This document shows, one piece after another, positions 7,008 to 58,228 of a stretch of 64,000 bases of DNA. The stretch covers positions 62,001 to 126,000 of the forward strand of contig JAJEKV010000541.1 of NCBI GenBank assembly GCA_021234155.1, in the 5' to 3' direction. The stretch's first letter is position 1; every line of letters starts with the position of its first letter. Position numbers and translations under genes: made by a program. Below the pieces are notes generated by a model that saw only the letters and a program-made list of their open reading frames with translations, was not told where the DNA came from and did no database searches. This stretch comes from Isoetes taiwanensis. Its lineage: Eukaryota; Streptophyta; Lycopodiopsida; Isoetales; Isoetaceae.

Positions 7008-10000
7008 ATGAGCGGCAAAAATTGTGCAGGTGAGCATTTAGAATATGGCATGAGAAAAAAGGGACGCAAAAAACAAAGTGGTGTGATTAATGGAAATATC
7101 GAGAAGGATGAAGAAAAAGATAGAAGCCTAAAAAGAAGTGGATGCAGCAAAAGTTTTCTTTGGCAGCGATCTCTAGACAATAATCCAGCTTTTAAGGACA
7201 TTGAGGATATTGGTTTGAAATCAATTTCACGGAAAAGATGTCGATCAAAGGGAAGTGAATTGAGCGAAACAGAAAGCAAGTTTGACGAGAAGGAATGTGG
7301 CCACAAGGAAAATTATTGGAAATGATTGGCATCAAAAATGAGAAACAAGAGTGGAAAGAGAGGAGTTAGATGTGAATGGAATAAGAAGTGTGATATTTGT
7401 GGTCTGGAATTGCTAAACGTAGAAAGAAAAGGGTTTTGCTGCAACAATGGAAAATGGAGACTCCCTCGGCTGCCTGAACTGCCGCAATGCATACACGAAT
7501 TATATTCTGATCCTAAATTCTCTAGAGACTCTCGAAAAGTAAATAATTTATTTTGCTTTACTGTTCTTGGTGTGAAAGGGTTATTTGTCCATCTGAAAAT
7601 ACCATCGTCCGTTAGTATTATGGAAAGAACATATCATAGACTATTACCAACTTCACAAGAGGGAAACCCTCTTCGATGATATATATATGATGAATCAGAG
7701 CGATATGACATGGCACGTGCACATCTAGTTAAATTTGAATGGGTATCACAGATAGCTAGCATGCTGAATAGCGTAAATCCATTCGCTCGAGCTTTGGAAA
7801 ATGTTACACAACTTGAAAAAAGGGATGTTATGCTGAGTATTAATGGGACAACTAGCAAGGATGAAATAGCTGCTATTGCCGATGTAAGCGATACTGTTAC
7901 CATCGAACCAAGAAAGGTTGGTTTTTGGTTGCAGCATGAAGGATCACCAAAATTTATAAGTATTTTAGACCCTTTATATGAGACATTACAATATCCATTG
8001 TTCTTCCCGCATGGAACATTAGGCTGGTATCCACGCAATGAATTTAGTCTTTCCCAAATTGAATGGTATAGGCAATGAATATTACATGAACCAAGGCTCG
8101 CCCAATTGGGCCGCCTTTGTGGCGAATATTTAGTTGATATGTTTTCACGGACTGAGGAGGAGAGATTAAATTACATATCAACCGAAGGGTTTACGAAAAA
8201 GAGCAACTCTAATAGAGATGATTTTGGGGACAATAGCAATGATTCAGGGGATGATATTATTCTGCCATCGTCGTTTTTGGGCTGGCGACGGTGGTGTGCA
8301 TCTCAAGTAGCAGACGCACTTGCATTAGCGAGATCAAAGGGACATCCAACCTTTTTTATAACAATGACTACGAATCCGGATTGGCATGAAATTCGTCAAA
8401 AAATAGAGCAGGGTAGAACAGCAGCAGATGTTCCAGTAGTTGTTTGTCGAGCATTCCATGCGCGTTTGCATGAACTTAAACAGCTTTTGAAGCGATATTT
8501 CGGATGTATTTCCTACATAATACATGTTATAGAGTTCCAAAAGAGAGGTTTACCTCACGCACATTTGGTGCTACGGACAGAAATTGATATTCCAATAAGT
8601 CCAATTGACGAAATCATTTGTGCAGAACTACCAGCAGATGTATCTGAGCGTATAAAAGTTGAAAAATATATGATACATTACCATTCATCTAGATGCTCTG
8701 ACGGCAGACCGTGTTGTTGGAATTTTCCTAAACGTATCACTACATCTACTTATATTGATGAAAAGGGTTATGTCCAATACAAAAGAAGACATGAAGAAGA
8801 CAGGTCTATCGTGCCATACAATCAGTTCTTATTGGAGAAATTGGACTGCCACATAACAGTTGACATTGCATCGACTGTCCACATATTCTCATATCTATAC
8901 AGTTATATTTATAAAGGATTTGACTCCGTTAAGTATCAGCTTCGAGCAAAAGACAAGCAATCAAGAACAAAGGCTGTAAATCTTTCTGATGGTCCAGTTG
9001 ACACAAAGAAGTGTGAAGACGGCCAAAAACAAGACCATGAACAGAAACGTCCAAAAAATGAAGTGCATGACTATCTAAATGCACGTTACTTATCCGCAAC
9101 GGAAGCAGCTTGGCGAATACTGGGCTATAATGTTACTAAGAAAACACCGGTTGTTAAATGTCTTCCATTACATTTGCCAGGTGAGAATAAACAGCAATTC
9201 AATAGAAAAGAAAAGTCGTCGTCGCTATCATTGCTAGATAGGTATTTTTTGCGGCCAGATAATTCGGAGTTTGATAATCTAACGTATGTAGAGTACTATG
9301 AAAAATATATGCTGCTTCCCAACAAACTGCATTTGAGAACAGAACAGGATAGTGTTGAGATATACGATGGTCACAATCCAGTTAATATTGTCAGAAATCG
9401 TGGAAATAAAACCTTGGTATGCCGAGTCCGATTATTACTTCCACGTGCAGGTGAGATATTTTATTTGCGGCAATTGCTTCTACACAAACCGTGCAGATCT
9501 TGGACTCATGCGAAAACGGTAAATAATGTGGAATACCCTATATAACAAAAAGCAGCAGAAGCGTTCGGCCTAACAGATGCAACAAATGAGTCTGACTTGG
9601 TTATGGAAGAAGTTGTCAGTTTAGCATTAACACCTAGTCAACTCCGTTTTCTGTTTGCATTGTTGTTAATGGATCAGGCACCTGCAACAGAATTATGGGA
9701 TAAGTATAAAGATGTAATGGCAAAAGATATGATTGACAGGTATATAGATAATCATGAGCTGGCCTACAACGAATGCTTGCATTTGATAAATGAGACATTG
9801 CTTCAACATTCTACAAGTGTTGCTGCGTTCGGACTGCTAATAAAAACATATATGGGTAGAGAAATTCCCAATGAACTTTCCCAATTTGCAGAAATAGACA
9901 CATATAAAACGACCTTTAATCAGATGTTGGCATCATTCAACAAAAATCAGCGACAAGTATTTGATGTTATACAGTCCATGATAGACGGAAAGGATGCTAT

Positions 10001-11300
10001 CAGACCAATTTTCATCGACGGAAAAGCGGGTACAGGTAAAACATACTTGCTTAATGCAGTGTGTTTATATACAAGAGCATCCAAGCTGATAACATTGCCA
10101 TGCGAAACAACAACACTTGCTGCATTACTTTATCCCGGTGGAAGAACAGCTCATTCATTATTCCAGATACCCGTAATAGAAAACAATGTAAATGTGCATT
10201 CATTGATGCCCAAGAAATCTGGATATGCAGACCTCCTCATGAAAAGCAGTGTAATAATATGGGATGAATTTCCAATGGCGAACAAGGCTGTGATTCTGGC
10301 AGTAAATAATCTACTTCAAGATCTATGTGAAAATAAAGAACCATTTGGAGGAAAATGCATCATAACAGCAGGTGATTTTAGACAGGTAGCTCCCATCGTT
10401 CGAGGAGCAGGCAAGACTGCGGCTATCAATGCATCGGTAAAATCATGCAGTTTATGGAATCACTTCGAGGTTCTAACGTTACATGAGCCAGTCCGTAATG
10501 CAGAAGATGAGGAGCTGATAGATTATGTAGACCAAATAGGAGAGGATTTCACAAATCCAACTGTCTCGATGAAATTGTTTGCAACAACCACAAGCCTTGA
10601 TGATGCAGTCAAATTTCTTTATCCATCGGCAATATTGAAAGACTCATCACAATCTGAAAAACGTGCATTCTTATCTGTACTTAATCGTAACGTCGATGAG
10701 TTCAATAAATATGTACTTTCGCTGTTAGAGACAGAAGAAACTAAATACTACAGCTTGGACCATATCACCGAGGATGATCAACGTATTGAAGATCATCCAT
10801 ATGCTAATCCAGATTTTCTAATGCATTTCAAACATCCAGGAATATCAGAGCATGAATTATCTCTCAAAGTTGGTTCCATCTGCCATATAATGAAATCATT
10901 AGACAGAGAAAAAGGATTAGTGAAGAATGCAAGAGTTGTCATCGAAGAACTCCACAAAAGATTTGTGATTGTTAGAGTTGTTGGAAGCACCGCAAAATCA
11001 GCTAATGCACGCCATGCAACATACCGAGTTGATTTTTTTTATCAGCCAGACAACAGACCATGGACAGTTCATAGACGACAGCTCCCTCTTCGACTTGCGT
11101 ATTCTACAACGTTCAATAGTTGCCAAGGTCTTACACTAGATAAGATGGTACTGGATTTGAGAGACGATATGTTTGCACACGGACAACTATATACAGCATT
11201 AACACGCATACGAAGAAAAGAAGATGTTCTTATTCTGTTGCGTGAAGAAAACACATCACTTACAACAACAAACATAGTTTATGAAGAACTACTTCAATAA
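7008..11300 (+). pseudogene. Helitron Rep/helicase, four in-frame stops
   Basis: This is one frame of 1,431 codons with no frameshift but four stops: TGA at 7323, 7677 and 8076, and TAA at 9543. The lysine-rich N-terminus is followed by a zinc-knuckle-like stretch (CDICGLELL...GFCCNNGKWRLP, about 7390). Then come the Rep domain with FFITMTTNPDW (about 8357), the HUH motif RGLPHAH (about 8546) and the tyrosine motif region YLYSYIYKGFD (about 8895; the usual lysine before the second Tyr is Ser). The helicase part has Walker A DGKAGTGKTY (about 10018), IIWDEFPMA (about 10258), GDFRQVAPI (about 10372), FNSCQGLTLD (about 11115) and YTALTRIR (about 11191). The protein nicks, unwinds and copies the element by rolling circle. 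Stops at 7677 and 8076 fit TGG to TGA and CGA to TGA transitions, as expected from cytosine deamination. As it stands it cannot make the full protein. Confidence 0.92.
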
Positions 11301-11487: not shown

Positions 11488-12450
11488 ATGGCGAGCACAT
11501 CCACAAAGACAATCTGCCCTCCACATGAACTAAGTCCATACGAGCTTAATTGGACAATCAAAGTCCGGGTGACAGCAAAAACACCTCTAAGATCTTACAA
11601 TAACACCCATGGCCAAGGGAATGTCTTCAGTGTTGAACTTATCGATGAACATGTGAGATACTTCCACTTTACTAGTCAAACTTTTCATTTTGCATTATGT
11701 TACTTACACATATTGTTTACAGGGAACAGAAATACAAGCAACAATGTTTAAAGAGGCAGCACAAATGTTTTATGACATATTGCAAGTTGACAAGGTAGTA
11801 TTCAGACCAAAACAGCAAGCTTATACAAGCTCAACAATCTCCCAGTTTTTTTGTTAATAATGTGATGTACTATATTTCAAAAGATTTACTCTCTACGTCA
11901 AGCAAATAGAAAGATATACACGCGGAACAATGATTACCAAATCATAATAAATACACGCTCAATTATTGAGGAAATCACAGAGGACCAGCAAATTCCTAGA
12001 GGATCGCAATGCTTCACTGAAATCAGCCGACTACCGCAATACATTAACAGCAAAACCCTTCTTGGTAAGCTTAAATACTTTTTCTCTCTTCAAACCACTC
12101 TATTTGTAGCTCTATATAACTGACATTTCCTTTGCTTCCATGGACATTATCGGCATTGTTTGTCATGTTTCTTCAACAACATCCATCACGAAGAAAGATA
12201 GACAACCGCCAATTCCAAGAAAAAGATATCACGATTCTAGACCAAAGGTATTGTAACATTTTAAATTATTAGTCACATATTTGAATCAATGCACATACGT
12301 TAACATAAAATTGTTTTGGAAAATCGCAGCCAAACCAAAGTCAACATCACACTTTGGAATGAACTTGCTTTAAATGATGGAAATCAGCTGCTGCAAATGA
12401 TCTCGACATTCCTTGTCATAACAATTTCAGTGTCCTTGCTGACCTAAAGG
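11488..12450 (+). pseudogene. RPA1-like ssDNA-binding protein, 5' part
   Basis: The product would be the large subunit of replication protein A, which coats single-stranded DNA; Helitrons often carry such genes next to the helicase. The start ATG at 11488 begins DNA-binding domain A: WTIKVRVTAKTPLRSYNN and GQGNVFSVELIDE. A donor follows at about 11655 and the next exon starts GTEIQATMFKEAAQMFY (11723). Later pieces are YYISKD (about 11869), NDYQIIINTRS (about 11929, after a frame change), and FTEISRLPQYINSKTLL to the donor at about 12064. Then come DIIGIVCHV (about 12142) and VNITLWNELALNDGNQLLQM (domain B, about 12340). The acceptor before DIIGI reads CCATGG here but CCAACAG in the duplicated copy at 20301-20311. 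The gene is split by the LINE at 12458 and resumes at about 18297. Confidence 0.85.
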
Positions 12451-12469
12451 ATGATTGCACTGAAGGTCT

Positions 12470-13590
12470 TATGGAGTCAAATGTGAAAACAAATGATAAT
12501 GTCAACTTTTCTGCCTCCCCCATCATTCAAGACATTTTTGATCCCATCTTTCCTGCTAATTCATCTCTTGCTCAGCCCACACAAAACAATCTCATTGACC
12601 TCTCACCACCTACTTTTAATTGAACTTCACTCCCCCATTAAATAATCATCATGAGATTATTTCCCCTTACAATGAATTTCGATAAAAGAATTGTCGGGTC
12701 ATGCCATCAGTTGGTGTTGAGGAAGTTCAGCCAAATGGATGCTCTCATATGCAAATTCAACAACATTCTATGGTCAGTGATTTCACAAACACATCAGCCT
12801 CATGTGACAGAATTACAGATCAAGACCTACAAGGGAAATTCCAAAATACTGCAGGGGTCATCTCAGGGGTCAGCTCAGTGGTCAGCTCAGTAGTATCTAA
12901 GGAAATTGAGGTTCAACATTCTATGGTCGAGTGATCTCACAAACACATCAGCCTCATGTGGCGTAATTATCGATCAAGATCTACAAAGGAAATTCCAAAA
13001 TAATCTGAGGGGGTATTTCGGGGGTCACTTCGATGGTCAGCTCAGTAGTATCTAAGGAAATTGAGGTTCAAGATTTCAACACTCAGCAAGTCAACTCCCA
13101 ACTTGGAGACAAAACCAGGCAAGATCCTTCCATTCTAGTCATTGCTTCTTATAATTTAAATAATAAAGTTCTTTCAAATGACAGCATCCCTGTTCTCAAG
13201 GATATTGATGGAAGTACTAATTATGATAAATCCATCCTGCCTCCTTCTCAGAATTTAGATTCTCCTGAATTACATACCTGTTGCAAATCTAAATTTTGGT
13301 GTTGTTCTCATGCCTCAAACTCTGACACAGATGCTGATTTGGATAAAGAAAATAACAAACCTCCTCAAAACTTATCTTCCTCTGATATTTGGGAAGATGA
13401 CTCCTTCCTTATCAACAATCCTCTCATAGGTTGTGAGAATAATCATAATTCCAATGGCTTGAATAGACAGACCACCAAGAAGCATAAGAATAAATCCAAA
13501 AAGTCCAAAAGGTCTACTGTTATCTCTGGTACTCCAGCTGCTAATACAAGAAATAGCTCTAAAAGAGTTACTAGGAGCCATAATCTTTAA
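12470..13590 (+). pseudogene. LINE ORF1, C-terminal part (copy 1)
   Basis: Only the region downstream of the usual RNA-binding core is present, and I see neither an RRM-like domain nor a CCHC knuckle. The frame starts around ATGGAGTCAAATG (12472) and ends at 13590. It contains a repeated peptide block (HSMVSDFTNTSASCDRITDQ near 12760 and a worn repeat near 12920) and a Val/Ser-rich linker (SGVSSVVSSVVSKEIEVQ). The tail is strongly basic (KKHKNKSKKSKRS) and would fit nucleic-acid binding. Its frame is broken several times, mostly at CAG/CTG sites that are intact in copy 2. Confidence 0.7.
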
Positions 13591-13625
13591 GTTGGTCTCC
13601 ATTTTCCTTCATCCTATTCTTCTCA

Positions 13626-16600
13626 ATGAAGATTCTTACTTGGAACCTTAGGGGAATAAAAGGTCCCCTTAAAAGAAGGAGGGCTATTTCCCAAATAAGG
13701 GAATACAACTCTGATATCATTCTTCTTCAAGAGCTAAGGCTACCAAACTTTGAATGCTCGAACTTAGGTGACTGGATTGGCCCTGGTCATTCTTCCATTT
13801 GGATTGAAGCCTCAGGAACTTCTGGAGGCATATGTATTATCTGGAAGAAATTTAAACATAATATTGTTTATAACAGTCCATGCAAAAGCTGGCAAGCTGT
13901 TACTCTTGTTCATGATGATCTAACCTTTGGTGTGATCAATATTTATGCTTCTACTGATTCCAGAGTTAGAGAACACACTTGGCATGACCTCAATGACTGG
14001 CTTCTTTCTCAATCTTGTCAAACATGGATTATTGCAGGTGATTTTAATAACACACCTAGCTGGGACCTTAAATGTGGCAAAAATCTTAACATGTCTGCTT
14101 CTGAGAGGGTAAATTGGGATAACTTCCTTGATCAGCATCTCCTTAATCACATCCCATCCTCTACTGCCAGATACACTTGGTCCAATAAACAAAGTGGTAA
14201 TGCCCGAGTTTTTTGCACTCTGGATAGATTCTATATCAGTAACATGGCTAATTCTTTCTGGGACAACTGCATGGTCTTTAGTGATGAGTCTACTTCTATA
14301 TCAGACCATCAACCTCAATTTCTATCTACCAAACATGTCATCAACATGAAGAGATCCGAAATATTCCTTTTAAATTAAACGTTCTCTCGCTTGACTCGGA
14401 TAGATTCAATTCGAATTTATAGCCTATTATAACTCTCTTCCAAGGGTTACTTTGCTCTTAATTCCATGAAATCTTTTCTACCCAACATCAAGTTTGTCTA
14501 AATCTTGGATCAAAAATTGGTCAAAGATTTTCGTGTTTCTAAAATTGCAGAGAAAAACAATCGCTTCAAAAGATGAAAAGATGTCGATTGAATCTCCAAT
14601 CACGACCCTTTAAACTCGAAGCTTCACTCTATGGAAGAGAAATGGAAATGTCTATCAAATCTATGGAAGAATTGGAGGCTAAAGGGGGCAGCCATCAAAT
14701 GCAAATTAAAATACCATGCTCAAATGGATAGCTCCAACTCAAAATTTTTCTCCGGGGTTGCTAAAAATAGGATTTTGAGAAATCAACTCTCTGCAATTGC
14801 TACTGAAGATGGATCTATTATCTCAGATCATGGCCATATCTCTAATTATTTCCATGACAAATACAGGGATATTTTTACCAAACCTTTGGACAATACTTTC
14901 GCCTCGTAGGGCAACAATTTCGGGGATTTCCTAAACAATGCCAAACTTAACTTCCATATCTACATCCCCGAAATTGAAAACCTTCCCACCGAAAAAATGA
15001 AGTCTTGTCCATAATTAAAGATCTTGGGAAGAATAAAAGTCCAGGCCCAGATGGCCTTCCTGTGGAATTTTATATTAAATTCTGGGATGTTATCAAATTG
15101 GATCTAATGCACATGATTCATGGATTCTGGAATCTCAATCATTTACATCCATCTATTTGCTCGTGTTTTGTCACCATGATTCCAAAAGTAGATAATCCTG
15201 CAAAGTTCAATGATTGGAGGCCAATTTCTTTAACTAATACCTCCTATAAAATATGTGCTAAGATCATTGCCAATAGAATTAAAGGTCATCTTCAAAAGGT
15301 CATTAGTTATTGCCAATCTGCATTTTTACCAAACAGGTTTATTCTTGATAACTACATTGCTGCCATGGAGGGCCTCCACTGGAATTCTTTATCAAAGAAA
15401 AATTGCATTCTCTTGAAACTCGACTTTTCCAAAGCCTTTGACACAGTAAGATGGGATTTTTTGGAGTTTGCCTTATCTAAGCTTGGTTTTTCCAGCAAAT
15501 TGATAAAGTTAATTCTTGGTCTCAATCAAAGATCTCAATCTGCTATTCTTATCAATGGATCTCCTACCAGATTTTTCCCGTTAGCCAGAGGTGTCGAGGG
15601 GCTGCTGCCCTCTTGCCCCTTATTTATTTCTGGTAGTTGCTCAAATGCTTACATCTGCTATTCAATTTCATCAAAGTAATAATGATATTTATGGTCTCAC
15701 TCTGCCTGATAATTCTTCTCTAACCATCTCTCAATATGCAGATGATACCTTCACATTCCTCCAAAATGATCCTAATAATATTGATTTCTTTTTCAAGATC
15801 ATAGATTCTTTCAGTGCTGCCTCTGGTGTTCACCTCAACAAAGATAAATGTGTCATCATTGGGGATATTACTTCTGATAATATCTCGGGTATTAAATGTG
15901 TGCACTCTAATGATTCAACTAAACTCTTAGGCATGCCTTTGTCCACAAACCCTTCTATTAAAGGCCTGTGGTCTCCTATTGTCTCTCGGATAAAAAAGAA
16001 ATTGTCTAATTATGGCAGTTGTTTATCTTTAGCTGGCAGAACTATTATTGCTAACTCTATTATTGCCAGCTCCCATATTTACTTCTCTTCAGCCCTTCTT
16101 GCTCCAAAATCTGTCTATCAACAGCTTGAAAGAATTATTAGAAATTTCATTTGGGGCAAGCATCATATGGTCAACTGGAAATCCATTGCTAGAAGTAAAA
16201 CTCAAGGTGGTCTTGGATGTAAAAATCTTCTTTATCAAGGCTATGCTCTAGCTGGTAAATATGTCCGATCTCTCTTTCATGGCAATAATCCAAGCCTCTA
16301 TCTTTATCAAAATCGGGCCGCCCCGGCAGCCATATTAAAGGTCATCTATCTCTTGTGCACCATTACCCTCTTGACTTTTTACAACTTACAACCCGGTGCA
16401 AATTCATCCCCCTCGATGAGAAACATTATCCTGGCTTGGAATTGGTCTCATAAAGCTTTCAACCATGTGGATCTTCATAAATGTCACCTTAGCTCTTCTA
16501 TCTTCTGGAACCCTATGCTTTCTAGGGACAACTCATCTCCTCTTGTTGTTATTCACCCGTGATTTATAAGAAGTGGAGTAATCATAATATCCTCACCTTA

Positions 16601-17430
16601 GGTGATCCGGAGATGAGAATAATGTGGATTACTTGGACCGCCTTCTTCGGGCAAAAAATAAGGGAACCTCTTCCGACAGGGAATCTTTTAAGCATATCAC
16701 TCAATCTCTCAAGTAATCATAACTTGGAGGCATGCTCAAACTCAAATATTGACTAGATTCTAAATAATAAGACGGTTTACAAAGTCTCCAAAGATTTACA
16801 AATTTTTGAATAAGCTGCACACACCTCAAAAGCTAAAACTTTTTGGAATATCTCACGAGGAATCGAGCTGAAACTTTTAGAAGTGTGTGGAATTCCAAGC
16901 TAACTCCCAAGATTGAATATTTTATCTGGTTATTGGCTAATGGTAGTGTTCCTAATCTTCTCTCTATTGCTAGACATCAAGCCAGGAATGCTGCTCCTAT
17001 AAATGCCCATTGTCCTCTTCAATGCAATCAAATGGAAGACATGCTACACATTTTTATCTGTCCTAAGCTGAACTCTTTATGGAATTGGTTTCATTACCAT
17101 TTTGCCACACCTAAGCCTACTTCCATGCTGAACTTTCTTTCAAATAATGATGCTTTCTTAAATTCCTTATCCTTCACTATTTTATGGAATATTTGGAAGC
17201 ACAGAAATAGATGTCTACATGGCAAATATTCTGTCTCTTGCACTTGGATTAAGTTACACATTATTTATGATCTCGAATTGGCAGCCACTTGTAATATAAA
17301 CAGTAAAAACAATCATTTTGATGACAGGTGGAACAGCTTGGGTGTATTTTATGGTTCTTTTAATCTTTTTCGATTAAATTGTCATGATGAATTCACTAAC
17401 ACTGATTTTTATCCATCATCGATTATATGA
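13626..17430 (+). pseudogene. LINE ORF2: endonuclease and reverse transcriptase (copy 1)
   Basis: ORF2 cuts the target DNA and copies the element's RNA at the nick. The start is the ATG at 13626, 35 bases after the ORF1 stop. The apurinic-type endonuclease has MKILTWNLRG, a catalytic-type LLQELR (13725), AGDFNN (14036) and SDHQP (14304). The fingers and palm of the reverse transcriptase are at 15005-16560, with GKNKSPGPDGLP, NDWRPISL, LKLDFSKAFDTV and the active-site SQYADDTF (about 15729). The terminal zf-RVT region has CNQMEDMLHIFIC followed by SLWNW (about 17022-17080). The frame is broken near 14340, 14900, 15590 and 16300-16850. At 15590 copy 1 reads GTCGAGGGGCTGCTG where copy 2 has GTCAGGCAAGGCTG, giving the expected G(V)RQGCPL motif. 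Confidence 0.9.
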
Positions 17431-17439
17431 ACAACCTCG

Positions 17440-17863
17440 GATCGACCTTAGAAGAGAATTCGCATTCATGTGGAGCGGCTTCTTGATCAAGAGATAGTTT
17501 ATTCTCAAGGCCTTTGGACAGGGAATTGTTAGAGGCGAACCCGATGTGGACATTCTAGACATACCAGAGAGGGAGATTGACTGGACAATTGAGTTCTGCA
17601 GAGGCGCCTACCTTATGCATGAGTTGTGGTGGTTCCTAGACAGATTTGGCAGCAATATGACTGAGCATCAATTTGATTACTATAGAGGCTGCTATTATTA
17701 CCACAGGAGTATGGCTGATGCATATGGAACTCTTATACTTCTGAGGGCAACAAGATACTCTGATACTTTGATTCAGAACTGGGCGGGAAATAATCACATC
17801 ATGATTATCCAACCAGACTACCCTTCCTTTTTCCAATACATTGACTCATATCATTTCTAATTT
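17440..17863 (+). other. Extra C-terminal LINE domain of unknown function
   Basis: Between the zf-RVT end and the poly(A) tail lies an open stretch of about 140 codons (a continuous ATG frame at 17546-17860) rich in Tyr, Trp and acidic residues. Examples are IPEREIDWTIEFCRGAY, HELWWFLDRFGS and FDYYRGCYYYHRSMADAY. It is not an RNase H domain: the usual D-E-D pattern and the TDGS-like start are missing. The duplicated copy (25670-26020) has the same segment with frame changes. It may be a lineage-specific LINE tail domain or a captured exon. I cannot assign a function. Confidence 0.5.
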
Positions 17864-18296
17864 CCACATCCTATCACCATCACCTCACATTTTCCTTAAT
17901 TTCACATTTTGACTCATGATTTTCCTCTCGAGTTGCTATCTTCCTGGCCAATACTATTATGTTTTTTTTATGTCACCGGTCATTCATGGACATTACGGCA
18001 TGGTATCTTAATCATGTTTCAGCTTCCAGACTTCGGGACTTTAGATCTAAGTTGGTTTTTAATTTACCATTGTATTCACTGCTACTTGTATTTTCATTGT
18101 CATACTACTATAGTGACAATAATTTCCTTTGTATCTTTTTTACATAATTAATGGAAAAAACTTCATTCTCTCAAAAAAAAAAAAAAAAAAAAAAAATGAT
18201 TGACCAGGTGCCAAATCAATACTTTCCAAGGTTTATTAACAGTTATTTTTTTTTATACATAATTGCTGCTGATCATTGTATCTGCTTTCCAACAGG

Positions 18297-19255
18297 TATT
18301 GCTTTATCGACAACCAACACCAGCACCATACAAATAAATCCAGATATTCCTGCTGCTACCGAATTACGCTCATGGTTATCTACCTACGCTCTTTACCTCT
18401 TTTCCAATTTACACATGTTTTCTTTCATTAATGCATTTTCCATTATAGGTACAACACCCATGGAAAAAATGCAACATACATAGATACAGAAGCAGCTTTA
18501 CTCCGTGCAAACGTAAACGAAACATGTCAACCTCTTTGCGCTCAACGTTCATTCATAGCAGACATCATGCAACCAATGATTGGCAAAGATAAGGTATTTA
18601 AATCATAACTGGTTCGTTACTTTGACTATTTAAGACCTACTTATCCTCGTTGCAGCCTGCCTACTTCAACATCAAATGCCACATCAGCTTTATCGATCCA
18701 CAGCAGCCTATGTGGTACCAGACATGCATGGCATGTAACAAAAAAGTAATCAGTCAAGACAGCAATTTCTGGTGCAATGATTGTCATAAAAACACGGACA
18801 GCTCCAAAAGATACTTTTAATTTCAGTTACACCATCCATAAACAGACTAACCACATTGTTCATTATTTGCTAGGTACATATTATCATGCAATCTAATTGA
18901 CACAACTGCAGAAATACGAGCTACTGCATTTAACCAAGAAGCAGAACAAATTCTTGGCTGTAGCGCTGAGCAACTATACAGAATGAAAAGCCAGGTCGGT
19001 AATTCTGCACAAGATTACACGAGGCAATACCGTGATAACATCAAATCCTTTTACTTGCAGGAATCTTTCCAGCAAACATACCATACACAACTCAAGAAAG
19101 CAACGTGGATACCCAAACTATTTCGTGTTAGTGTACTCCAAGTCGACTTCAATTATGATAAGAGGCGAAAAGTGATTATTCGCCAAGTCGTTCCGATAGA
19201 CTGGACTACTGAATGTAGGTATATATTACACCAAATACAGTCTCTTCAGACCTAA
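18297..19255 (+). pseudogene. RPA1-like ssDNA-binding protein, 3' part (copy 1)
   Basis: This continues the RPA gene beyond the LINE. After an AG acceptor at about 18296 the exon reads GIALSTTNTSTIQINPDIP and ELRSW (end of domain B). The next exons start at about 18450, 18657 (PAYFNIKCHISFIDP), 18873 (YILSCNLIDTTAEIRATAFN) and 19060 (ESFQQTYH). The zinc ribbon of domain C is visible as CMACNKK plus CNDCHKN (about 18727-18790). The last exon has KKATWIPKLFRVSVLQVDFN and ends IHQIQSLQT-like at the TAA at 19253. All four introns have GT/AG ends. This half is well preserved compared with copy 2, in which CAG sites at the same splice acceptors and in the zinc ribbon are altered. Confidence 0.87.
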
Positions 19256-19758
19256 CTTCTCGGCTCAGTTTCATTGTACAACATATGCTATTCGCTGTTT
19301 ATAACTACTTCCCCTGTATATATTACACGAAATACAGTCTTTTCAACCCTAGCTTCTCGACTAAGTTTCATTGTATATATGTTATTTGCTGTTTGTAATT
19401 ACTTCCCCTGTATATATTTTTCATTTTCAATCTACGACACTCTATTTCAGCAAACAAACGTTGTTTTCAAATCAGCTTTAGATAGCTCTTTACAGCAACT
19501 AACCTTGACACCCATTTCTTTCTTGCTATCTAATTGAATGATAACCTATTAAATATCCACACCAATAAGCAATAACACAATAAAATATATATAATTCATA
19601 CAATTGCAACACAACGCATAACTTCACGTCCATTTACGTAAATATTATTACAATTATATTAGAGAGTAACAACATACATGAAAATCTATCATTCACACAT
19701 ATTTTCGCGTTCAACACATCGTACACTTCAAACCAAAATATCATTCACTGCTTAACCA
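19256..19758. other. Helitron 3' non-coding region
   Basis: AT-rich sequence between the RPA stop and the terminal hairpin. Two similar 60-base segments (about 19215-19290 and 19315-19390, each with ATATATTACAC, TTCGACT/CGGCT and CAGTTTCATTGT) form a local tandem repeat. No gene recognised. Confidence 0.5.
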
Positions 19759-19783
19759 ATGCGGCGGCAACGCCGCCGCATTC
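19759..19783 (+). repeat. Helitron-type terminal hairpin
   Basis: A perfect 10-bp stem with a 5-base CAACG loop, arms AATGCGGCGG and CCGCCGCATT. Position, strand and GC-rich composition in an AT-rich context fit the 3' subterminal hairpin of a Helitron. In the duplicated copy (27920-27940) the hairpin is degraded, with changes at CCG/CGG and at a neighbouring CTG. Confidence 0.7.
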
Positions 19784-19787
19784 CAGT

Positions 19788-20177
19788 CTTGTATTTAAAG
19801 AAAAGTATGGCGAGGACTTAAAGAAACCAGCCAACTCTTTGGAGCTTAAGGAGGCGTGTGCAATAGAGTGCTGCCTAAAGTACGATGAGGCAAACAAACG
19901 GCAGTCGCTTATCAGCCACGACAACTGGTTTCAGCTTGCCTTCAGAGATGGTCGAGTATGTTAGTTTTGTATTCCAGAATACGCTTTGTGTGCTTGTTGC
20001 CCTTGAACGCTCTAACAGCCTTCTATTTTCGAGTGCAGATCTGGGAGGTGCAGAACGAAATTTTTAATATGTTCGAAAGGGGAGAGCTGAAGAGTAAGGG
20101 AAAGGTGTCCGACAAAAAGAAGGGTGCCGACGTCCCAAAAAAAGAGATGACAATTACAGTGTGGAGGGAGTTGCAGG
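19788..20177 (+). pseudogene. Two host exons next to the Helitron end (copy 1)
   Basis: The first exon (about 19790-19955) reads FKEKYGEDLKKPANSLELKE, ACAIECCLKYDEANKR and SHDNWFQLAFRDGR, and stops at a GTATGT donor. The second starts after an AG at 20038: IWEVQNEIFNMFERGELKSK, a Lys-rich linker, then EMTITVWRELQG. Here it is joined in frame to RPA exon sequence by the duplication junction. The short intron contains ATTCCAGAAT, a variant of the TTCCGGAA palindrome. The true continuation is at the far side of copy 2 (from about 28340). I do not recognise a catalytic domain. Spacing, strand and protein style suggest these exons may belong with the ParB-like segment and the methyltransferase-like exon, which is inference. 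Confidence 0.55.
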
Positions 20178-20617
20178 GCTTCACTGAAATCAGCCGACTA
20201 CCGCAATACATTAACAGCAAAACCCTTCTTGGTAAGCTTAAATACTTTTTCTCTCTTCAAACCACTCTATTTGTAGCTCTATATAACTGACATTTCCTTT
20301 GCTTCCAACAGACATTATCGGCATTGTTTGTCATGTTTCTTCAACAACACCTGTACGAAGAAAGATAGACAACCAGCCAATTCCAAGAAAAGATATCACG
20401 ATTCTAGACCAAAGGTATTGTAACATTTTAAATTATTAGTCACATATTTGAATCAATGCACATACGTTAACATAAAACTGTTTTGGAAAATCGCAGCCAA
20501 ACCAAAGTCAACATCACACTTTGGAATGAACTTGCTTTAAATGATGGAAATCAGCTGCTGCAAATGATCTCGACATTCCTTGTCATAACAATTTCAGTGT
20601 CCTTGCTGACCTAAAGG
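20178..20617 (+). pseudogene. RPA1-like gene, 5' partial (copy 2)
   Basis: Starts mid-exon at FTEISRLPQYINSKTLL, fused in frame to the host exon upstream. It then has an intact intron (acceptor CCAACAG at 20304-20310) and DIIGIVCHVSSTTPVRRKID followed by IPRKDITILDQR (about 20311-20415), then VNITLWNELALNDGNQLLQM. It is cleaner than copy 1 over this span, so it gives the better reading of domain B. Interrupted by the second LINE copy at 20625. Confidence 0.8.
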
Positions 20618-20637
20618 ATGATTGCACTGAAGGTCTT

Positions 20638-21765
20638 ATGGAGTCAAATGTGAAAACAAATGATAATGTCAACTTTTCTGCCTCCCCCATCATTCAAGAC
20701 ATTTTTGATCCCATCTTTCCTGCTAATTCATCTCTTGCTCAGCCCACACAAAACAATCTCATTGACCTCTCACCACCTACCTTAATTGAACTTCACTCCC
20801 CCCCATTAAATAATCATCATGAGATTATTTCCCCTTACACAGAATTCCTGATAAAAGAATTGTCAGTCATGCCATCAGTTGGTGTTGAGGAAGTTCAGCC
20901 AAATGGATGCTCTCATATGCAAATTCAACAACATTCTATGGTCAGTGATTTCACAAACACATCAGCCTCATGTGACAGAATTACAGATCAAGACCTACAA
21001 GGGAAATTCCAAAATACCGCAGGGTCATCTCGGGGGTATTTCATTTGGTCACTCCTCAAGAGTATCTAAGGAAATTGAGGTTCAACATTCTATGGTCAGT
21101 GATCTCACAAACACATCAGCCTCATGTGACAGAATTACTGATCAAGATCTACAAAGGAAATTCCAAAATAATGCAGGGGTCAGCTCAGGGGTCAGCTCAG
21201 TGGTCAGCTCAGTAGTATCTAAGGAAATTGAGGTTCAAGATTTCAACACTCAGCAAGTCAACTCCCAACTTGGAGACAAAACCAGGCAAGATCCTTCCAT
21301 TCTAGTCATTGCTTCTTATAATTTAAATAATAAAGTTCTTTCAAATGACAAAGATCCCCTCGTTCTCAAGGATATTGATGGAAGTACTAATTATGATAAA
21401 TCCATCCCCGCCTCCCTTTCTCTAATTTAGATTCTCCCAATTACATACCATTTGCAAATCTAAATTTTGGTGTTGTTCTCATGCCTCAAACTCGACACGA
21501 TCTTTGATTTGGATAAAGAAAATAACAAACCTCCTCAAAACTTATCTTCCTCCTCGATATTTGGGAAGATGACTCCTTTATATCAGCAATCCTCTCATAG
21601 GTTGTGAGAATAATCATAATTCCAATGGCTTGAATAGACGTGGACCACCAAGAAGCATAAGAATAAATCCAAAAAGTCCAAAAGGTCTCTTCGTTATCTC
21701 CGGTACTCCAATTTTGCTAATACAAGAAATAGCTCTAAAAGAGTTACTAGGAGCCATAATCTTTA
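20638..21765 (+). pseudogene. LINE ORF1, C-terminal part (copy 2)
   Basis: The same region as 12470-13590. The first peptide block and the Val/Ser linker are altered near 21020-21065, while the second block (about 21085-21235) is well preserved, the reverse of copy 1. From about 21400 to 21765 the frame is broken repeatedly at positions where copy 1 has CTG or CAG. Confidence 0.65.
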
Positions 21766-21803
21766 AGTTGGTCTCCCATTTTCCTTCATCCTATTCTTCT
21801 CAA

Positions 21804-22760
21804 TGAAGATTCTTACTTGGAACCTTAGGGGAATAAAAGGTCCCCTTAAAAGAAGGAGGGCTATTTCCCAAATAAGGGAATACAACTCGATATCATTCTT
21901 CTTCAAGAGCTAAGGCTACCAAACTTTGAATGCTCGAACTTAGGTATTTGGATTGGCCCCTGGTCATTCTTCCATTTGGATTGAAGCCTCGGGAACTTCG
22001 AGGCATATGTATTATCTGGAAGAAATTTAAACATAATATTGTTTATAACAGATCCATGCAAAAGCCGGGTAAGTCGTTACTCTTGTTCATGATGATCTAA
22101 CCTTTGGTGTGATCAATATTTATGCTTCTCTTGATTCCGAGAAAGTTAGAGAACACACTTGGCATGACCTCAATGATGGCTTCTTTTCTCAATCTTGTCA
22201 AACATGGATTATTGCAGGTGATTTTAATAACACACCTAGCTGGGACCTTAAATGTGGCAAAAATCTTAACATGTCTGCTTCTGAGAGGGTAAATTGGGAT
22301 AACTTCCTTGATCAGCATCTCCTTAATCACATCCCATCCTCTACTGCCAGATACACTTGGTCCAATAAACAAAGTGGTAATGCCCGAGTTTTTTGCACTC
22401 TGGATAGATTCTATATCAGTAACATGGCTAATTCTTTCGGGACAATCAAGATGGTCTTTAGTGATGAGTCTACTTCTATATCAGACCATCAACCTCAATT
22501 TCTATCTACCAAACATGTCATCAACATGAAGAGATCTGGAAATATTCCTTTTAAATTAAACTGTTCTCTGCTTGACTCAGATAGATTCAATTCTGAATTT
22601 ATAGCCTATTATAACTCTCTTCCAAGGGTTACTGCTCTTAATTCCATGAAATCTTTCTACTCCAACATCAAGCTGTCTAAATCTTGGATCAAAAATTGGT
22701 CAAAGATTTTCGTGCTTCTAAAATTGCAGAGAAAAACAATCTGCTTCAAAAGATGAAAGA
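21804..22760 (+). pseudogene. LINE ORF2 endonuclease part (copy 2)
   Basis: ATG at 21804, then MKILTWNLRG. Several frame changes follow before 22110, where copy 1 is open. From 22109 the frame is open for 215 codons and includes AGDFNN, SDHQP and the linker towards the reverse transcriptase, where copy 1 is broken (14340-14620). Confidence 0.8.
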
Positions 22761-25450
22761 TGTCAGATTGAATCTCCAATCTGACCCTTTAAACTCTGAG
22801 CTTCACTCTATGGAAGAGAATCTGGAAATGTCTATCAAATCTATGGAAGAATTGGAGGCTAAAGGGGCAGCCATCAAATGCAAATTAAAATACCATGCTC
22901 AAATGGATAGCTCCAACTCAAAATTTTTCTACAGGGTTGCTAAAAATAGGATTTTGAGAAATCAACTCTCTGCAATTGCTACTGAAGATGGATCTATTAT
23001 CTCAGATCATGGCCATATCTCTAATTATTTCCATGACAAATACAGGGATATTTTTACCAAACCCATGGACAACTTTCCGATCTCTGTAGGGCAACAATTG
23101 CAGGGATTTCCTAAACAATCTGCCAAACTTAACTTCCATATCTACATCCCCTGAAATTGAAAACCTTCCCACTGAAAATGAAGTCTTGTCCATAATTAAA
23201 GATCTTGGGAAGAATAAAAGTCCGAGCCCGTGATGGCCTTCTGTGGAATTTTATATTAAATGCAGGATGTTATCAAATTGGATCTAATGCACATGATTCA
23301 TGGATTCGGAATCTCAATCATTTACATCCATCTATTTGCTCGTGTTTTGTCACCATGATTCCAAAAAGTAGATAATCCCAAAGTTCAATGATTGAGGCCA
23401 ATTTCTTTAACTAATACCTCCTATAAAAATATGTGCTAAGATCATTGCCAATAGAATTAAAGGTCATCTTCAAAAGGTCATTAGTTATTGCCAATCTGCA
23501 TTTTTACCAAACAGGTTTATTCTTGATAACTACATTGCTGCCATGGAGGGCCTCCACTGGAATTCTTTATCAAAGAAAAATTGCATTCTCTTGAAACTCG
23601 ACTTTTCCAAAGCCTTTGACACAGTAAGATGGGATTTTTTGGAGTTTGCCTTATCTAAGCTTGGTTTTTCCAGCAAATTGATAAAGTTAATTCTTGGTCT
23701 CAATCAAAGATCTCAATCTGCTATTCTTATCAATGGATCTCCTACCAGATTTTTCCCGTTAGCCAGAGGTGTCAGGCAAGGCTGCCCTCTTGCCCCTTAT
23801 TTATTTCTGGTAGTTGCTCAAATGCTTACATCTGCTATTCAATTTCATCAAAGTAATAATGATATTTATGGTCTCACTCTGCCTGATAATTCTTCTCTAA
23901 CCATCTCTCAATATGCAGATGATACCTTCACATTCCTCCAAAATGATCCTAATAATATTGATTTCTTTTTCAAGATCATAGATTCTTTCAGTGCTGCCTC
24001 TGGTGTTCACCTCAACAAAGATAAATGTGTCATCATTGGGGATATTACTTCTGATAATATCTCGGGTATTAAATGTGTGCACTCTAATGATTCAACTAAA
24101 CTCTTAGGCATGCCTTTGTCCACAAACCCTTCTATTAAAGGCCTGTGGTCTCCTATTGTCTCTCGGATAAAAAAGAAATTGTCTAATTATGGCAGTTATT
24201 TATCTTTAGCTGGCAGAACTATTATTGCTAACTCTGTTATTGCCAGCTCCCATATTTACTTCTCTTCAGCCCTTCTTGCTCCAAAATCTGTCTATCAACA
24301 GCTTGAAAGAATTATTAGAAATTTCATTTGGGGCAAGCATCATATGGTCAACTGGAAATCCATTGCTAGAAGTAAAACTCAAGGTGGTCTTGGATGTAAA
24401 AATCTTCTTTATCAAGGCTATGCTCTAGCTGGTAAATATGTCTGGAGATCTCTCTTTCATGGCAATAATCCAGCCTCTATCTTTATCAAATACTGGCTGT
24501 CTGGCAGCCATATTAAAGGTCATCTATCTCTTGTGCACCAATTACCCTCTTCAGCTTTTTACAACTTACAACCTGGTGCAAATTCATCCCCTCTGATGAG
24601 AAACATTATCCTGGCTTGGAATTGGTCTCATAAAGCTTTCAACCATGTGGATCTTCATAAATGTCACCTTAGCTCTTCTATCTTCTCGAACCCTATGCTT
24701 TCTAGGGACAACTCATCTCCTCTTGTCGTTATTCACCCCGGGATTTATAAGAAGTGGAGTAATCATAATATCCTCGACCGGAGACGTAATAGCGGTGGAT
24801 TACTTGGACCGCAAAAAAAAAAATAAGGGAACCTCTTCCGGGAATCTTTTTAAGCATATCACTCAATCTCAAGAATCATAACTTGGAGGCATGCTCAAAC
24901 TCAAATATTGACTAGATTCTAAATAATAAAGGCAGTTTACAAAGTCTCCGGCATTTACAAATTTTTTGAATAAGCACACAGCCTCAAAAGCTAAAACTTT
25001 TGGAATATCTCTCGAGGAATCTGGAGCTTTGAAACTTTTTAGAAGTGTGTGGAATTCCAAGCTAACTCCCAAGATTGAATATTTTATCCTGGTTATTGGC
25101 TAATGGTAGTGTTCCTAATCTTCTCTCTATTGCTAGACATCAAGCCGAATTTTGCTCCTATAAATGCCCATTGTCCTCTTCAATGCAATCAAATGGAAGA
25201 CATGCTACACATTTTTTATCTGTCCTAATTTGAACTCTTTATGGAATTGGTTTCATTACCATTTTGCCACACCTAAGCCTACTTCCATGCTGAAGTTTCT
25301 TTCAAATAATGATGCTTTCTTAAATTCCTTATCCTTCACTATTTTATGGAATATTTGGAAGCGCGAAATAGATGTCTACATGGCAAATATTCTGTCTCTT
25401 GCACTTGGATTAAGTTACACATTATTTATGATCTCGAATTGGTGACCACT
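22761..25450 (+). pseudogene. LINE ORF2 reverse transcriptase and zf-RVT (copy 2)
   Basis: The reverse transcriptase palm is continuous from 23543 to 24826 (427 codons). It has LKLDFSKAFDTV, ARGVRQGCPLAPYLF (23763-23805) and SQYADDTF (about 23906). Upstream, 23090-23540 has frame changes at sites such as CTGTGGAATT, where copy 1 keeps CCTGTGG. Downstream, 24760-25450 is worn, but the zf-RVT pattern ending SLWNWFHYHF is still readable (about 25229). Confidence 0.88.
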
Positions 25451-26439
25451 TGTAATATAAACATAAAAACAATCATTTTGATGCCGTGGAACAAACTTGG
25501 GTGTATTTTATGGTTCTTTTAATCTTTTTTCGATTAAATTGTCATGATGAATTCACTAACACCGATTTATATCCATCGAGTTATATGAACAACCTCGGAT
25601 CGACCTTAGAAGAGAATTCGCATTCATGTGGAACGACTTCTTGATCAAGAGATAGTTTATTTCAAGGCCTTTGAATGAGAGAATTGTTAGAGGCGGGGAC
25701 CCGATGTGGACATTCTAGACATACCGGAGAGGGATATTGATTTGGACAATTGAGTTCTAGCAGAGAGGCCTACCTTATGCATGAGTTGTGGTGGTTCCTA
25801 GGCGATTTGGCGGCAATATGGTGAGCATCAATTTGATTACTATAGAGTACGCTATTATTACCACCGCACGGGAGTATGGGCGATGCATATGGAACTCTTA
25901 TACTGAGGGCAACAAGATACTCGATACTTTGATTCAGAACCGAACCGGGAAATAATCACATCATGATTATCCAAACCGGACTACCCTTCCTTTTTCCAAT
26001 ACATTGACTCATATCATTTCTAATTTCCACATCCTATCACCATCACCTCACATTTTCCTTAATTTCACATTTTGACTCATGATTTTGCTCTCGAGTTGCT
26101 ATCTTCCTGGCCAATACTATTATGTTTTTGGCTGTCAGCTGGTCATTCATGGACATTACGGCATGGTATCTTAATCATGTTTCAGCTTCCAGACTTCGGG
26201 ACTTTAGATCTAAGTTGGTTTTTAATTTACCATTGTATTCACTGCTACTTGTATTTTCATTGTCATACTACTATAGTGACAATGATTTCCTTTGTATCTT
26301 TTTTACATAATTAATGGAAAAAACTTCATTCTCTCAAAAAAAAAAAAAAAAAAAAACAAATGATTGACCGGTAGCCAAATCAATACTTTCCAAGGTTTAT
26401 TTTTTTTTTTTTTTATACATAATTCTGCCGATCATTGTA

Positions 26440-27415
26440 TACGCTTTCCAACGTATTGCTTTATCGACAACCAACACCACACCATACAAATAAATCCGGA
26501 TATTTCCTTTAACAACTCTTAATTACGCTCATGGTTATCTACCTACGCTCTTTACCTCTTTTCCAATTTACACATGTTTTCTTTCATTAATGCATTTTCC
26601 ATTATAGGTACAACACCCATGGAAAAAATGCAACATACATAGATCTGTACGACTTTACTCCGCGGTAAACGAAAGCGAAACATGTCAACCTCTTTGCGCT
26701 CAACGTTCATTCATAGCGGACATCATGCAACCAATGATTGGCAAAGATAAGGTATTTAAATCATAACCGGTTCGTTATTTTGACTATTTAAGACCTACTT
26801 ATCCTCATTGTACCGCCTACTTTAACATCAAATGCCACATCAGCTTTATCGATCCACAAAGAGCCTATGTGGTACGGACATGCATGGCATGTAACAAAAA
26901 AGTAATCAGTCAAGACAAAGCAATTTAAGGTGCAATGATTGTCATAAAAACACGGGGACTCCAAAAGATACTTTTAATTTTCGGCCACCATCCATAAACG
27001 CGGACTAACCACATTGTTCATTATTTGCTAGGTACATATTATCATGCAATCTAATTGACACAACTGCAGAAATACGAGCTACTGCATTTAACCAAGAAGC
27101 AGAACAAATTCTTGGTCATGTAAGCCGGAGCAACTATACTGTAATGAAAAGCCGGTCGGTAATTTCTGCACAAGATTACACGAGGCAATACCGTATAACA
27201 TCAAATCCTTTTTACTTGCGGAATCTTTCCAGCAAACATACCATACACAACTCAAGAAAGCAACGTGGATACCCAAACTATTTCGTGTTAGTGTACTCCA
27301 AGTCGACTTCAATTATGATAAGAGGCGAAAAGTGATTATTCGCCAAGTCGTTCCGATAGACTGGACTACTGAATGTAGGTATATATTACACCAAATACAG
27401 TCTCTTCAGACCTAA
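26440..27415 (+). pseudogene. RPA1-like gene, 3' part (copy 2)
   Basis: The duplicate of 18297-19255. The acceptor before the first exon reads CCAACG instead of CCAACAG. The zinc ribbon has one intact CMACNKK, but CAG-linked changes precede it, and the second pair is shifted. KKATWIPKLFRVSVLQVDFN and the final exon are unchanged. Confidence 0.8.
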
Positions 27416-27944
27416 CTTCTCGGCTCAGTTTCATTGTACAACATATGCTATTCGGGTCCTTTTATAACTACTTCCCTCAGTATATATTACAATCTAAATC
27501 TTTTCAACCCTAGCTTCGACTAAGTTTCATTGTATATATGTTATTTGCTGTTTGTAATTACTTCCCTCAGATATATTTTTCATTTTCAATCTATTTACAC
27601 TCTATTTCAGCAAACAAACGTTGTTTTTCAAATCAGCTTTAGATAGCTCTTTACAAACAACTAACCTTTGACACCCATTTCTTTCTTGCTATCTAATTGA
27701 ATGATAACCTATTAAATATCCACACCAATAAGCAATAACACAATAAAATATATATAATTCATACAATTGCAACACAACCATAACTTCACGTCCATTTACG
27801 TAAATATTATTACAATTATATTGGGGAGAGTAACAACATACATGAAAATCTATCATTCACACATATTTTCGCGTTCAACACATCGCACACTTCAAACCAA
27901 AATATCATTCATCTTAACCAATGGGCGTGTTAACGCCGCAAGAT

Positions 27945-28450
27945 TCCAGCCTTTGTATTTAAAGAAAAGTATGGCGAGGACTTAAAGAAACCAGCCAACT
28001 CTTTGGAGCTTAAGGAGGCGTGTGCAATAGAGTGTTTGCCCTAAAAGTACGATGAGGCAAACAAACGGCGGGCCGCTTATCAGCCACGACATTAACCGGT
28101 TTCAAATTTTGCCTTCGAGATGGTCGAGTATGTTAGTTTGTATTCCGTATCACGCTTTGTGTGCTTGTTGCCCTTGAGCGCTCTAATGCCTTCCATTTTC
28201 GAAAGCGCGTGACCGGGAGGTGCGTAAGCTAAATTTTTAATATGTTCGAAAGGGGAGAGTGAAGAGTAAGGGAAAGGTGTCCGGACAAAAAGAAGGGTGC
28301 CCGGCGTCCCAAAAAAAGAGATGACAATTACAAGTGTGGAGGGAGTTGCGGTGGCTTCGATATGGATTTGCTAAAAGGCTCCTTAAAGTTGTTGACAAAT
28401 ACTTAATCGGAAGAAATGTCCAAAGAACCGCACAAAGCAAGTTGTATTTT
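27945..28450 (+). pseudogene. Host exons, copy 2 and original continuation
   Basis: These are the same two exons as 19788-20177 with many CAG/CTG-linked changes (for example GAGAGCTGAAGAG in copy 1 is GAGAGTGAAGAG here). Beyond the duplication limit the original exon continues. One frame reads GFDMDLLK and, one base over, LLKVVDKYLIGRNVQRTAQS, before reaching a stop region at about 28465. The ParB-like gene is a possible owner. Confidence 0.5.
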
Positions 28451-50897: not shown

Positions 50898-50985
50898 CAT
50901 GGTACAACCACTCATAGTACAAGCACTTGTATATGTATACAAGTTTTTCTACTATGAGCGGTGCACTACGAGTGGTTGTACCATG
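50898..50985. repeat. Nested foldback, 88 bp
   Basis: The outer arms are 16 bp and perfect (CATGGTACAACCACTC at 50898-50913, complement at 50970-50985). Inside, CTCATAGTA pairs with TACTATGAG (50950-50958) and ACTTGTATA pairs with TATACAAGT around 50933. The whole unit can fold into a long hairpin, as in a small MITE or a foldback RNA. Confidence 0.85.
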
Positions 50986-51713
50986 AACGATTAGCATAAT
51001 GATTTCAAAGAAGGAACATGGTTAATTCTATCCTCGATTGATCACACATACGTCAAATTTAATGCTTCCTTTAGCAAACATTTTCCTATGGAGTTCCATT
51101 TAGACAAGTCAAGTTCAATCTTTCCTACAATGGGCACCACAAAGTGCATTTGTCAACTTGAATTAGCGGCTATGCCTATAGAGTTCTATTTAGAAAGGAC
51201 GAATTCAAGATTGCCTTAGTTTCCCTTGACCATGTGCCCCTTTATTACCATTTTCAAATCATTAAACTCATTATGTAAATCCAATAACTCTATTATTCTA
51301 CCCCTCTTCGCAGTCACACAAATGGAAGTATGCATCTAGACCAATGTTATGAAGGTTTAACCTAAATTCATTGCACGGGATAGCAATTTAATGAACATCT
51401 TGAAATAGCAATTCACGTGTTGCATTGGAGATTCCGGGCCTCCTAACTCCCTTGTCAAAACACCACTATGTCATTTCTCAACTACTTAAAAGATTCTCCG
51501 GCGTCACAAGCTTGCAATTGTTTATTAGAACTTCTCCTTCCATCCAATGCCATAGAAAGTGTCATATCGCTTGTTTGTTTCCAAGTCTATAATGCTCCTC
51601 CTTTTTGGAGACTCCAGTAAAATTGCTAAAACTTGTAATGAGATTCCTCAAGAATCCTCTAGATTGTCCTGAAACATACCAAGTGTGAAAGATCACCTAC
51701 ATTCATTAAGATC
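50986..51713. other. No recognisable gene
   Basis: AT-rich sequence with no coding signal. Confidence 0.35.
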
Positions 51714-51783
51714 ACCAATATTCTATCAAATTTATCGAGATTTGCCTTCCCCAATATTCTATCAAATTTATCGAGATTTGCTG
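51714..51783. repeat. 37-bp direct repeat, two units
   Basis: CCAATATTCTATCAAATTTA plus TCGAGATTTGC occurs twice in a row. Confidence 0.9.
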
Positions 51784-53800: not shown

Positions 53801-53809
53801 ACACGAATA

Positions 53810-55920: not shown

Positions 55921-55939
55921 ATCTAGACCATCATCAACA

Positions 55940-56120
55940 CATTCAACGTGAGATCAAAAGCCCCAAATAAGGGGGCTGTTTTGGGATCATGACGGGTACG
56001 CTTCGCGGGCATTTGACCACAATCTAGACCGCCTGCATCTAGATACACACCTCGGTCGGAAACAAGGGCAGCTTTATATAATTGTATATATATAATGTAT
56101 ATATCACTATCACTCAATAT
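55940..56120. repeat. MITE-like remnant
   Basis: AAAGCCCCAAATAAGGGGGC at about 55958 is close to the complement of the fourth hairpin at 48466-48491, so the two places share a small repeat family in opposite orientation. A (TA)n-rich tail follows to 56125. Confidence 0.5.
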
Positions 56121-56159
56121 ATATACACGCGGTATTAGATGTGTGTTTTGTCATCCCAT

Positions 56160-58140: not shown

Positions 58141-58228
58141 TTTCAAACGATCAAGGAAATCTTGGAGAAACCAAATAAAATTTTTAATCCTGGCCATATC
58201 TTTTGCGTGCCCTAAACTTAACAATTTG

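Follow-up and report, generated by a model that had tools for sequence, protein, structure and literature searches.

Differences between tandem copies in an Isoetes taiwanensis contig concentrate at CAG and CTG and are probably consensus errors

Two tandem copies, A and B, of an 8.17-kb unit are located in a 64-kb stretch of the Isoetes taiwanensis assembly GCA_021234155.1 (contig JAJEKV010000541.1, positions 62,001 to 126,000; hereafter the window), which is part of a 153,012-bp contig (C265) in an assembly of 1.66 Gb. The unit is composed of a segment resembling replication factor A (RPA) and a long interspersed nuclear element (LINE). The copies are 94.1% identical, and the question raised by this locus is whether the remaining differences are mutations or errors of the assembled consensus. 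We put at roughly 0.88 the probability that most of them are uncorrected errors of the consensus, for which the most likely cause is the miscalling of 5-methylcytosine (5mC) in CHG context by a nanopore sequencer, a cause that we infer from the distribution and kind of the changes in the sequence. The assembled sequence does contain the differences, and most of them are probably absent from the plant. The features that constitute the duplication are as follows.

12011–20182, + strand: tandem copy A, an RPA-like segment downstream of Helitron frames, with a LINE inside
20178–28358, + strand: tandem copy B
12402–18193, + strand: L1-type LINE in copy A, with endonuclease, RVT_1, zf-RVT and a poly-A tail; probably 5'-truncated
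20569–26357, + strand: copy B counterpart of the copy A LINE, ends placed by eye

Differences between copies A and B

In the following, CWG denotes CAG or CTG, and the CHG class comprises CWG together with CCG and CGG; CHG is a context that is methylated in plant transposons and in silent ribosomal DNA (rDNA). The full alignment of A and B spans 8273 columns, including 426 mismatch columns and 193 gap columns, which form 199 difference clusters. A CAG or CTG is touched by 139 of these clusters (70%), 130 of which touch one that is present in one copy only and 9 one that is present in both; when windows of equal length are placed at random, the mean is 35.0 and the maximum 55 in 1000 trials. 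Tabulation by trinucleotide context, a check proposed in a first-pass annotation of this stretch, bears out the enrichment of CWG, with CAG/CTG disrupted at 169 of 383 sites (44%), CG-containing classes at 37–65%, and the remaining classes at 4–26%. The same annotation had stated that nearly all of about 25 differences compared fall at CAG or CTG and had quoted four examples. All four are present in the full alignment and the excess is strong, but "nearly all" overstates it: 39 of the 199 clusters are without contact to CWG or CG, and 10 of those 39 are single substitutions.

Related LINE copies on other contigs

Four outside copies of the LINE, all on large contigs (C1026, C1068, C941, and C1060), were aligned with the following segments of A and B.

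13608–18180, + strand: copy A LINE segment; 67 of 168 CAG/CTG altered, in blocks
21785–26345, + strand: copy B LINE segment; 75 of 168 CAG/CTG altered, in blocks

C1026 was used as the reference; among the four outside loci it is the densest in CWG and its open stretch is the longest, which favors the detection of losses. Of 103 LINE clusters, 79 are located on a CWG of C1026 (20.6 expected), and 74 are located on a reference CWG when C1060 is used instead. Of the 79 clusters, 26 show a departure from C1026 only in A, 35 only in B, and 18 in the two copies together, such that, judged by agreement with C1026, each copy is correct in some blocks, as had been proposed. As to the direction of change, the CWG is present in C1026 only in 52 clusters and in A only in 1, and the same comparison for B yields 63 and 2. 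Among the 168 C1026 CAG/CTG sites, 32 are altered in C1068, 38 in C941, and 22 in C1060, in addition to the 67 and 75 of A and B. Among 4375 other non-CG triplets, 365 are altered in A, 467 in B, 282 in C1068, 497 in C941, and 497 in C1060. The odds ratios for CWG relative to other non-CG triplets are 7.3 for A and 6.7 for B (p about 1e-27), and 2.3 for C941 (p = 5e-5); an excess in C1060 relative to C1026 is not detectable (odds ratio 1.2, p = 0.46).

The kind of change bears on whether the differences arose as real mutations by deamination of methylated CHG cytosines after the duplication. CHG and CG are both methylation contexts in plants, and C>T changes are indeed observed at altered CWG sites. 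C>T (or G>A) is, however, not the main change, accounting for 9 of 67 altered sites in A and 12 of 75 in B; the others are 22 other single substitutions, 17 multi-base changes, and 19 indels in A, and 19, 22, and 22, respectively, in B. Triplets containing CG, the classic hotspot, are changed at 4 of 28 sites in A and 7 of 28 in B, compared with 9 of 28 in C1060, so that A and B show no excess over C1060; this would fit a basecalling model that is used to CpG methylation. The 140 clusters between C1026 and C1060 consist of 70 transitions, 42 transversions, 23 multiple substitutions, 4 pure indels, and 1 mixed change, a spectrum that is ordinary divergence for this LINE family. Only 28 of those 140 clusters are other than one substitution, versus 167 of the 199 clusters between A and B. 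Altered sites also come in blocks, and we regard deamination as most improbable.

These blocks are evident from the order of altered and unaltered CWG sites. A has 42 runs, compared with 81.7 after shuffling, and B has 46, compared with 84.1, with none of 5000 shuffles as low. C1068 and C941 are also clustered (0 of 5000 shuffles as clustered), and the shuffle test gives no clustering in C1060. Runs of at least five altered sites span 79–321 columns and clean runs span 126–1177 columns in A, B, and C1068. Sixteen CWG sites are altered in both A and C1068 and are intact in B, the tandem twin of A, and simple inheritance is therefore insufficient. In the 1052-codon open stretch of C1026, frame-changing clusters are located at CWG in 16 of 20 cases in A, 9 of 16 in B, and 10 of 14 in C1068, with random means of 3.2, 2.8, and 2.3, respectively; C941 has three such clusters, two of them at CWG, and C1060 has two, one of them at CWG. 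The suggestion that many of the "pseudogene" frame changes may be technical is supported by these counts.

Ribosomal RNA genes and other repeats

Ribosomal RNA (rRNA) genes provide a conserved yardstick. The retrieved portions of two arrays of 5S genes (C13 and C907) contain 63 copies, nine of which equal the reference copy, the reference included. The string CCATCAGAACT is unaltered in 26 copies and changed in 37, being replaced by CCATCGAACT in 32 of the latter. Other CHG sites are altered in those copies too, often to one common string, and in some single 119-bp genes a clean stretch gives way to an altered one. Of the 52 copies above the cut-off of the Rfam model, 10 score 110–111 bits and 42 score 39–95 bits. 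Counted genome-wide as exact strings with equal flanks, which is a subset of all genes, the CAG-to-CG change is observed in 45 of 72 copies in the two main arrays (27 clean) and in 1 of 33 elsewhere (32 clean; p = 1.5e-9). Removal of five clean copies in short arrays (C1103 and C1041) leaves 1 altered and 27 clean copies elsewhere (p = 2e-8). Large 5S arrays should hold working genes, and decay would damage stray gene copies first; alteration of the main arrays with clean copies elsewhere is therefore the reverse of the expectation from selection or decay. The C13 array (C13:282001–305000; L017 and L018) has a unit of about 350 bp, and a minority of its genes match intact 5S.

In 18S, a pattern with exact flanks is found at 17 places, with GCAGTT in 11 and altered in 6. 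Six near-full-length copies of the twelve fetched were compared by triplet (L020, L021, L025, L029, L030, and L031 were dropped), and the counts are taken over 30 ordered pairs and are not independent; among 32 triplet classes, CAG/CTG is the most disrupted (459 of 705), followed by CCG/CGG (1007 of 1685). When a truncated C907 copy is used for comparison (about 250–410 bp), 8–10 of 11 CWG sites are changed in the six copies that are altered at the pattern site, and 4 of 11, 7 of 12, 4 of 11, and 4 of 11 are changed in four other copies; a second C907 copy has 0 of 12.

These genes bear on a further biological explanation, in which methylated CHG sites are mutated by indels or short replacements, for example when excision of 5mC, or a break, is followed by error-prone repair. 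The sequence specificity, the clustering, and the repeats as targets are compatible with such a process, as is the variation in outcome among copies at one LINE site. The involvement of 18S and 5S genes, the damage to the main 5S arrays with 32 of 33 copies elsewhere clean, and the switching inside single 119-bp genes argue against it, and such a process is not known to have a precedent, although no search for one was made. We consider it very unlikely, and equally so that this plant has a real, methylation-directed mutation process by which blocks of CHG sites acquire short indels and replacements, with transposons and arrayed rRNA genes affected independently of each other.

The alterations recur in other sequences. 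A CWG-type signature, with CCG/CGG included, is also observed in contig C611, in a 9-Mb contig, in the 5S arrays, and in the 18S copies, such that one motif is altered repeatedly and independently in unrelated sequences (LINE copies, C611, 5S, and 18S). Two further regions of the window are involved.

48961–58475, − strand: stretch duplicated in contig C611 (L016), with CWG- and CCG-centered differences there too
58232–61987, + strand: adjacent direct repeats, 58232–60117 and 60120–61987

Between C611 and the first of these regions, CAG/CTG is disrupted at 174 of 248 sites and CCG/CGG at 98 of 138, and gaps are present in 213 of 340 clusters. The sequence common to C611 (77 kb) and C265 amounts to about 9.5 kb, and the two contigs may represent one locus, either as separate haplotypes or as duplicates. 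Between the direct repeats, 37 of 39 CAG/CTG sites differ, as do 1547 of 3547 triplets that are neither CG nor CWG. Motif density is indicative only, because sequence type differs between loci: CAG/CTG is present at 18.1 per kb in the window, 11.0 in the adjoining 2 kb outside it, 29.3–36.3 in comparison loci L005–L007, L009, and L010, 19.0–29.4 in L003, L004, and L011–L015, and 16.8 and 19.2 in two plastid pieces, and low density is also observed in several small-contig Copia loci. CCG/CGG is present at 11.5 per kb in the window, 3.5–5.9 in L005–L007, L009, and L010, and 4.1–13.4 in the other seven nuclear loci. A pair of long terminal repeats was obtained from six of seven Copia loci, the exception being L015. 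Two of the pairs, of 219 and 259 bp, are on large contigs and show 100% identity, and those on four small contigs have 5 to 16 difference clusters each. In the latter, CWG is disrupted at 3 of 19, 5 of 23, 3 of 9, and 11 of 29 sites, and triplets without CWG or CG at fractions of 0.03–0.12; the trend agrees with the CWG signature, but the numbers are small.

Consensus errors could also have a cause other than CHG methylation, such as sequence-specific CAG/CTG miscalls where repeats are collapsed or covered by few reads, or the use of a different sequencing platform. The affected places seen here are repeats, and several are located on small contigs; GCGCGC is altered in 5S too, as such a cause would allow. 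However, CWG and CCG together make up the CHG class, and CAC, for example, is changed at only 3 of 78 and 7 of 78 sites in the LINE of A and B. In addition, eight frames, rbcL and atpB among them, are open within 10 kb of the small plastid contig C840 (34.6 kb), and small contig size alone would therefore not break frames. Together with the published precedent of errors at Dcm sites (PMC6591954), these points make a cause unrelated to CHG methylation unlikely, at odds we would place near one in twenty.

The assembly includes plastid-type rbcL and plant-type transposons. The frames of C840 (L001; 34,556 bp), assigned by eye, resemble ndhC, ndhK, ndhJ, atpE, atpB, rbcL, accD, and ycf4, and this contig is possibly from another photosynthetic organism (contamination or epiphyte). 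A region of the 11.4-Mb contig C1052 (L002; C1052:5411001–5421000) contains intact-looking plastid rbcL, atpB, and atpE and represents a plastid insertion or a misjoin. C1052 and C840 were dropped as a plastid control: their rbcL sequences are only 89.7% identical, and outside rbcL the search aligned no more than 72 bp between the two 10-kb pieces, which are therefore not one genome's pair.

The tandem region itself is a transposon assemblage, and a virus or provirus as the 8.2-kb unit was rejected, the content of the unit being the LINE and the RPA-like segment. The remaining features are as follows.

8079–11300, + strand: Helitron_like_N and PIF1 helicase open frames (8079–9545 and 9546–11300), upstream of copy A
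18851–19255, + strand: frame in copy A resembling the C-terminal part of replication factor A
27009–27335, + strand: frame in copy B resembling the C-terminal part of replication factor A, as if broken; a second frame, 27092–27415, overlaps it

The Helitron and PIF1 frames look unaltered, with 29, 31, and 34 CAG/CTG in the 1-kb bins from 8001 to 11000. The LINE is inserted within the replication factor A-like segment, and in copy A it is flanked by a putative 7-bp target-site duplication, AAATGAT, at 12395–12401 and 18194–18200, which was identified by eye and merges with the poly-A. The LINE in A and B is probably 5'-truncated, because other copies extend upstream of its 5' end. Near its 5' part are two tandem repeats of about 160 bp, at 12761–13075 in A and 20929–21242 in B, and other LINE copies appear with one unit of this repeat. 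Dense, overlapping direct and inverted self-matches at 1001–1359 indicate a palindromic or tandem structure.

Origin of the alterations and known systems

Several features of the sequence point to a technical cause. Within the altered blocks, short strings of another sequence stand in place of most CAG/CTG triplets and, in other parts of the assembly, of many CCG/CGG triplets. CAG/CTG is retained in closely related copies at other loci, which diverge chiefly through substitutions; at the altered CAG/CTG sites, by contrast, most events are indels, affect more than one base, or are substitutions of a kind other than C>T; altered and unaltered blocks alternate, sometimes within single 119-bp 5S genes; and conserved rRNA genes are affected, the main 5S arrays being altered and the copies elsewhere nearly all clean. 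Several observations weigh on the other side. In the LINE, 24 of 103 clusters are away from any C1026 CWG, and 61 of 168 CWG sites are unaltered in both A and B. TCA/TGA is changed at 27 of 216 sites in A and 26 of 216 in B, but at just 3 of 166 and 7 of 166 when sites that overlap CWG are left aside. The altered strings at shared LINE sites mostly differ, with 3 of 22 identical between A and C1068 and 10 of 35 between A and B; a fixed dictionary of miscalls is largely true for 5S and is not borne out in the LINE. CWG is present in neither copy for 205 of the 340 clusters between C265 and C611, part of which are taken as putative sites altered in both copies. Finally, CG-containing 5S strings such as GCGCGC are often altered, which does not fit a simple model in which CG is handled and CHG is not.

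Miscalling at methylated CHG sites would proceed in three steps. The cytosines at the altered sites would carry 5mC in CHG context, native nanopore DNA would have been basecalled by a model whose training did not include 5mCHG, giving a wrong consensus there, and short-read or other polishing may have fixed only those stretches to which reads could be assigned, so that clean blocks and altered ones now alternate. The first-pass annotation is supported in substance, with the signature extending well beyond this duplication; its restriction of the affected class to CWG holds for CAG/CTG and is too narrow, as CCG/CGG and some dense CG are affected, and the class is CHG. Without the clusters that touch CWG or CG, 39 of 199 remain, and the 94% identity therefore probably greatly overstates the age of the duplication; A and B are probably far younger and more alike than this figure. 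An assembly of this kind would give wrong values for repeat divergence and insertion dates, and wrong pseudogene calls and rRNA variants. Comparison with a homologous copy for CAG/CTG sites lost by indels rather than C>T offers a screen that requires no reads and could be used on other long-read plant assemblies.

In a limited literature search with papers covered in part, no report of CAG/CTG consensus errors in a plant assembly was found. Related systems have been described. Systematic, motif-specific nanopore miscalls at repeats are reported for telomeres (PMC9414165), where, unlike here, the motif is the telomere repeat and not CHG sites. Species-specific models raise nanopore accuracy in two plants, with methylation suggested as a reason (Ferguson et al. 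2022, PMC9749173). Similar to the present case, general basecalling models lose accuracy in native plant DNA, and the suggested source, at least in part, is methylation unlike that of the training data; the topic there, however, appears to be read accuracy and not blocks of consensus error in repeats, and a term search of the main text found no CHG, CAG, or CTG. The closest parallel is found in Klebsiella pneumoniae, in which, with default models, about 70% of Oxford Nanopore Technologies consensus errors are located within the Dcm motif CCAGG/CCTGG (Wick et al. 2019, PMC6591954). Those errors, like the alterations in the window, are concentrated at a motif, which there has 5mC before W-G and was read by a basecaller untrained on that methylation. 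The present case differs in that it concerns a plant, a wider CHG class, and error blocks mixed with clean stretches. By this analogy, the Dcm (CCWGG) errors are the published precedent, and the alterations described here are most likely their plant counterpart at 5mCHG.

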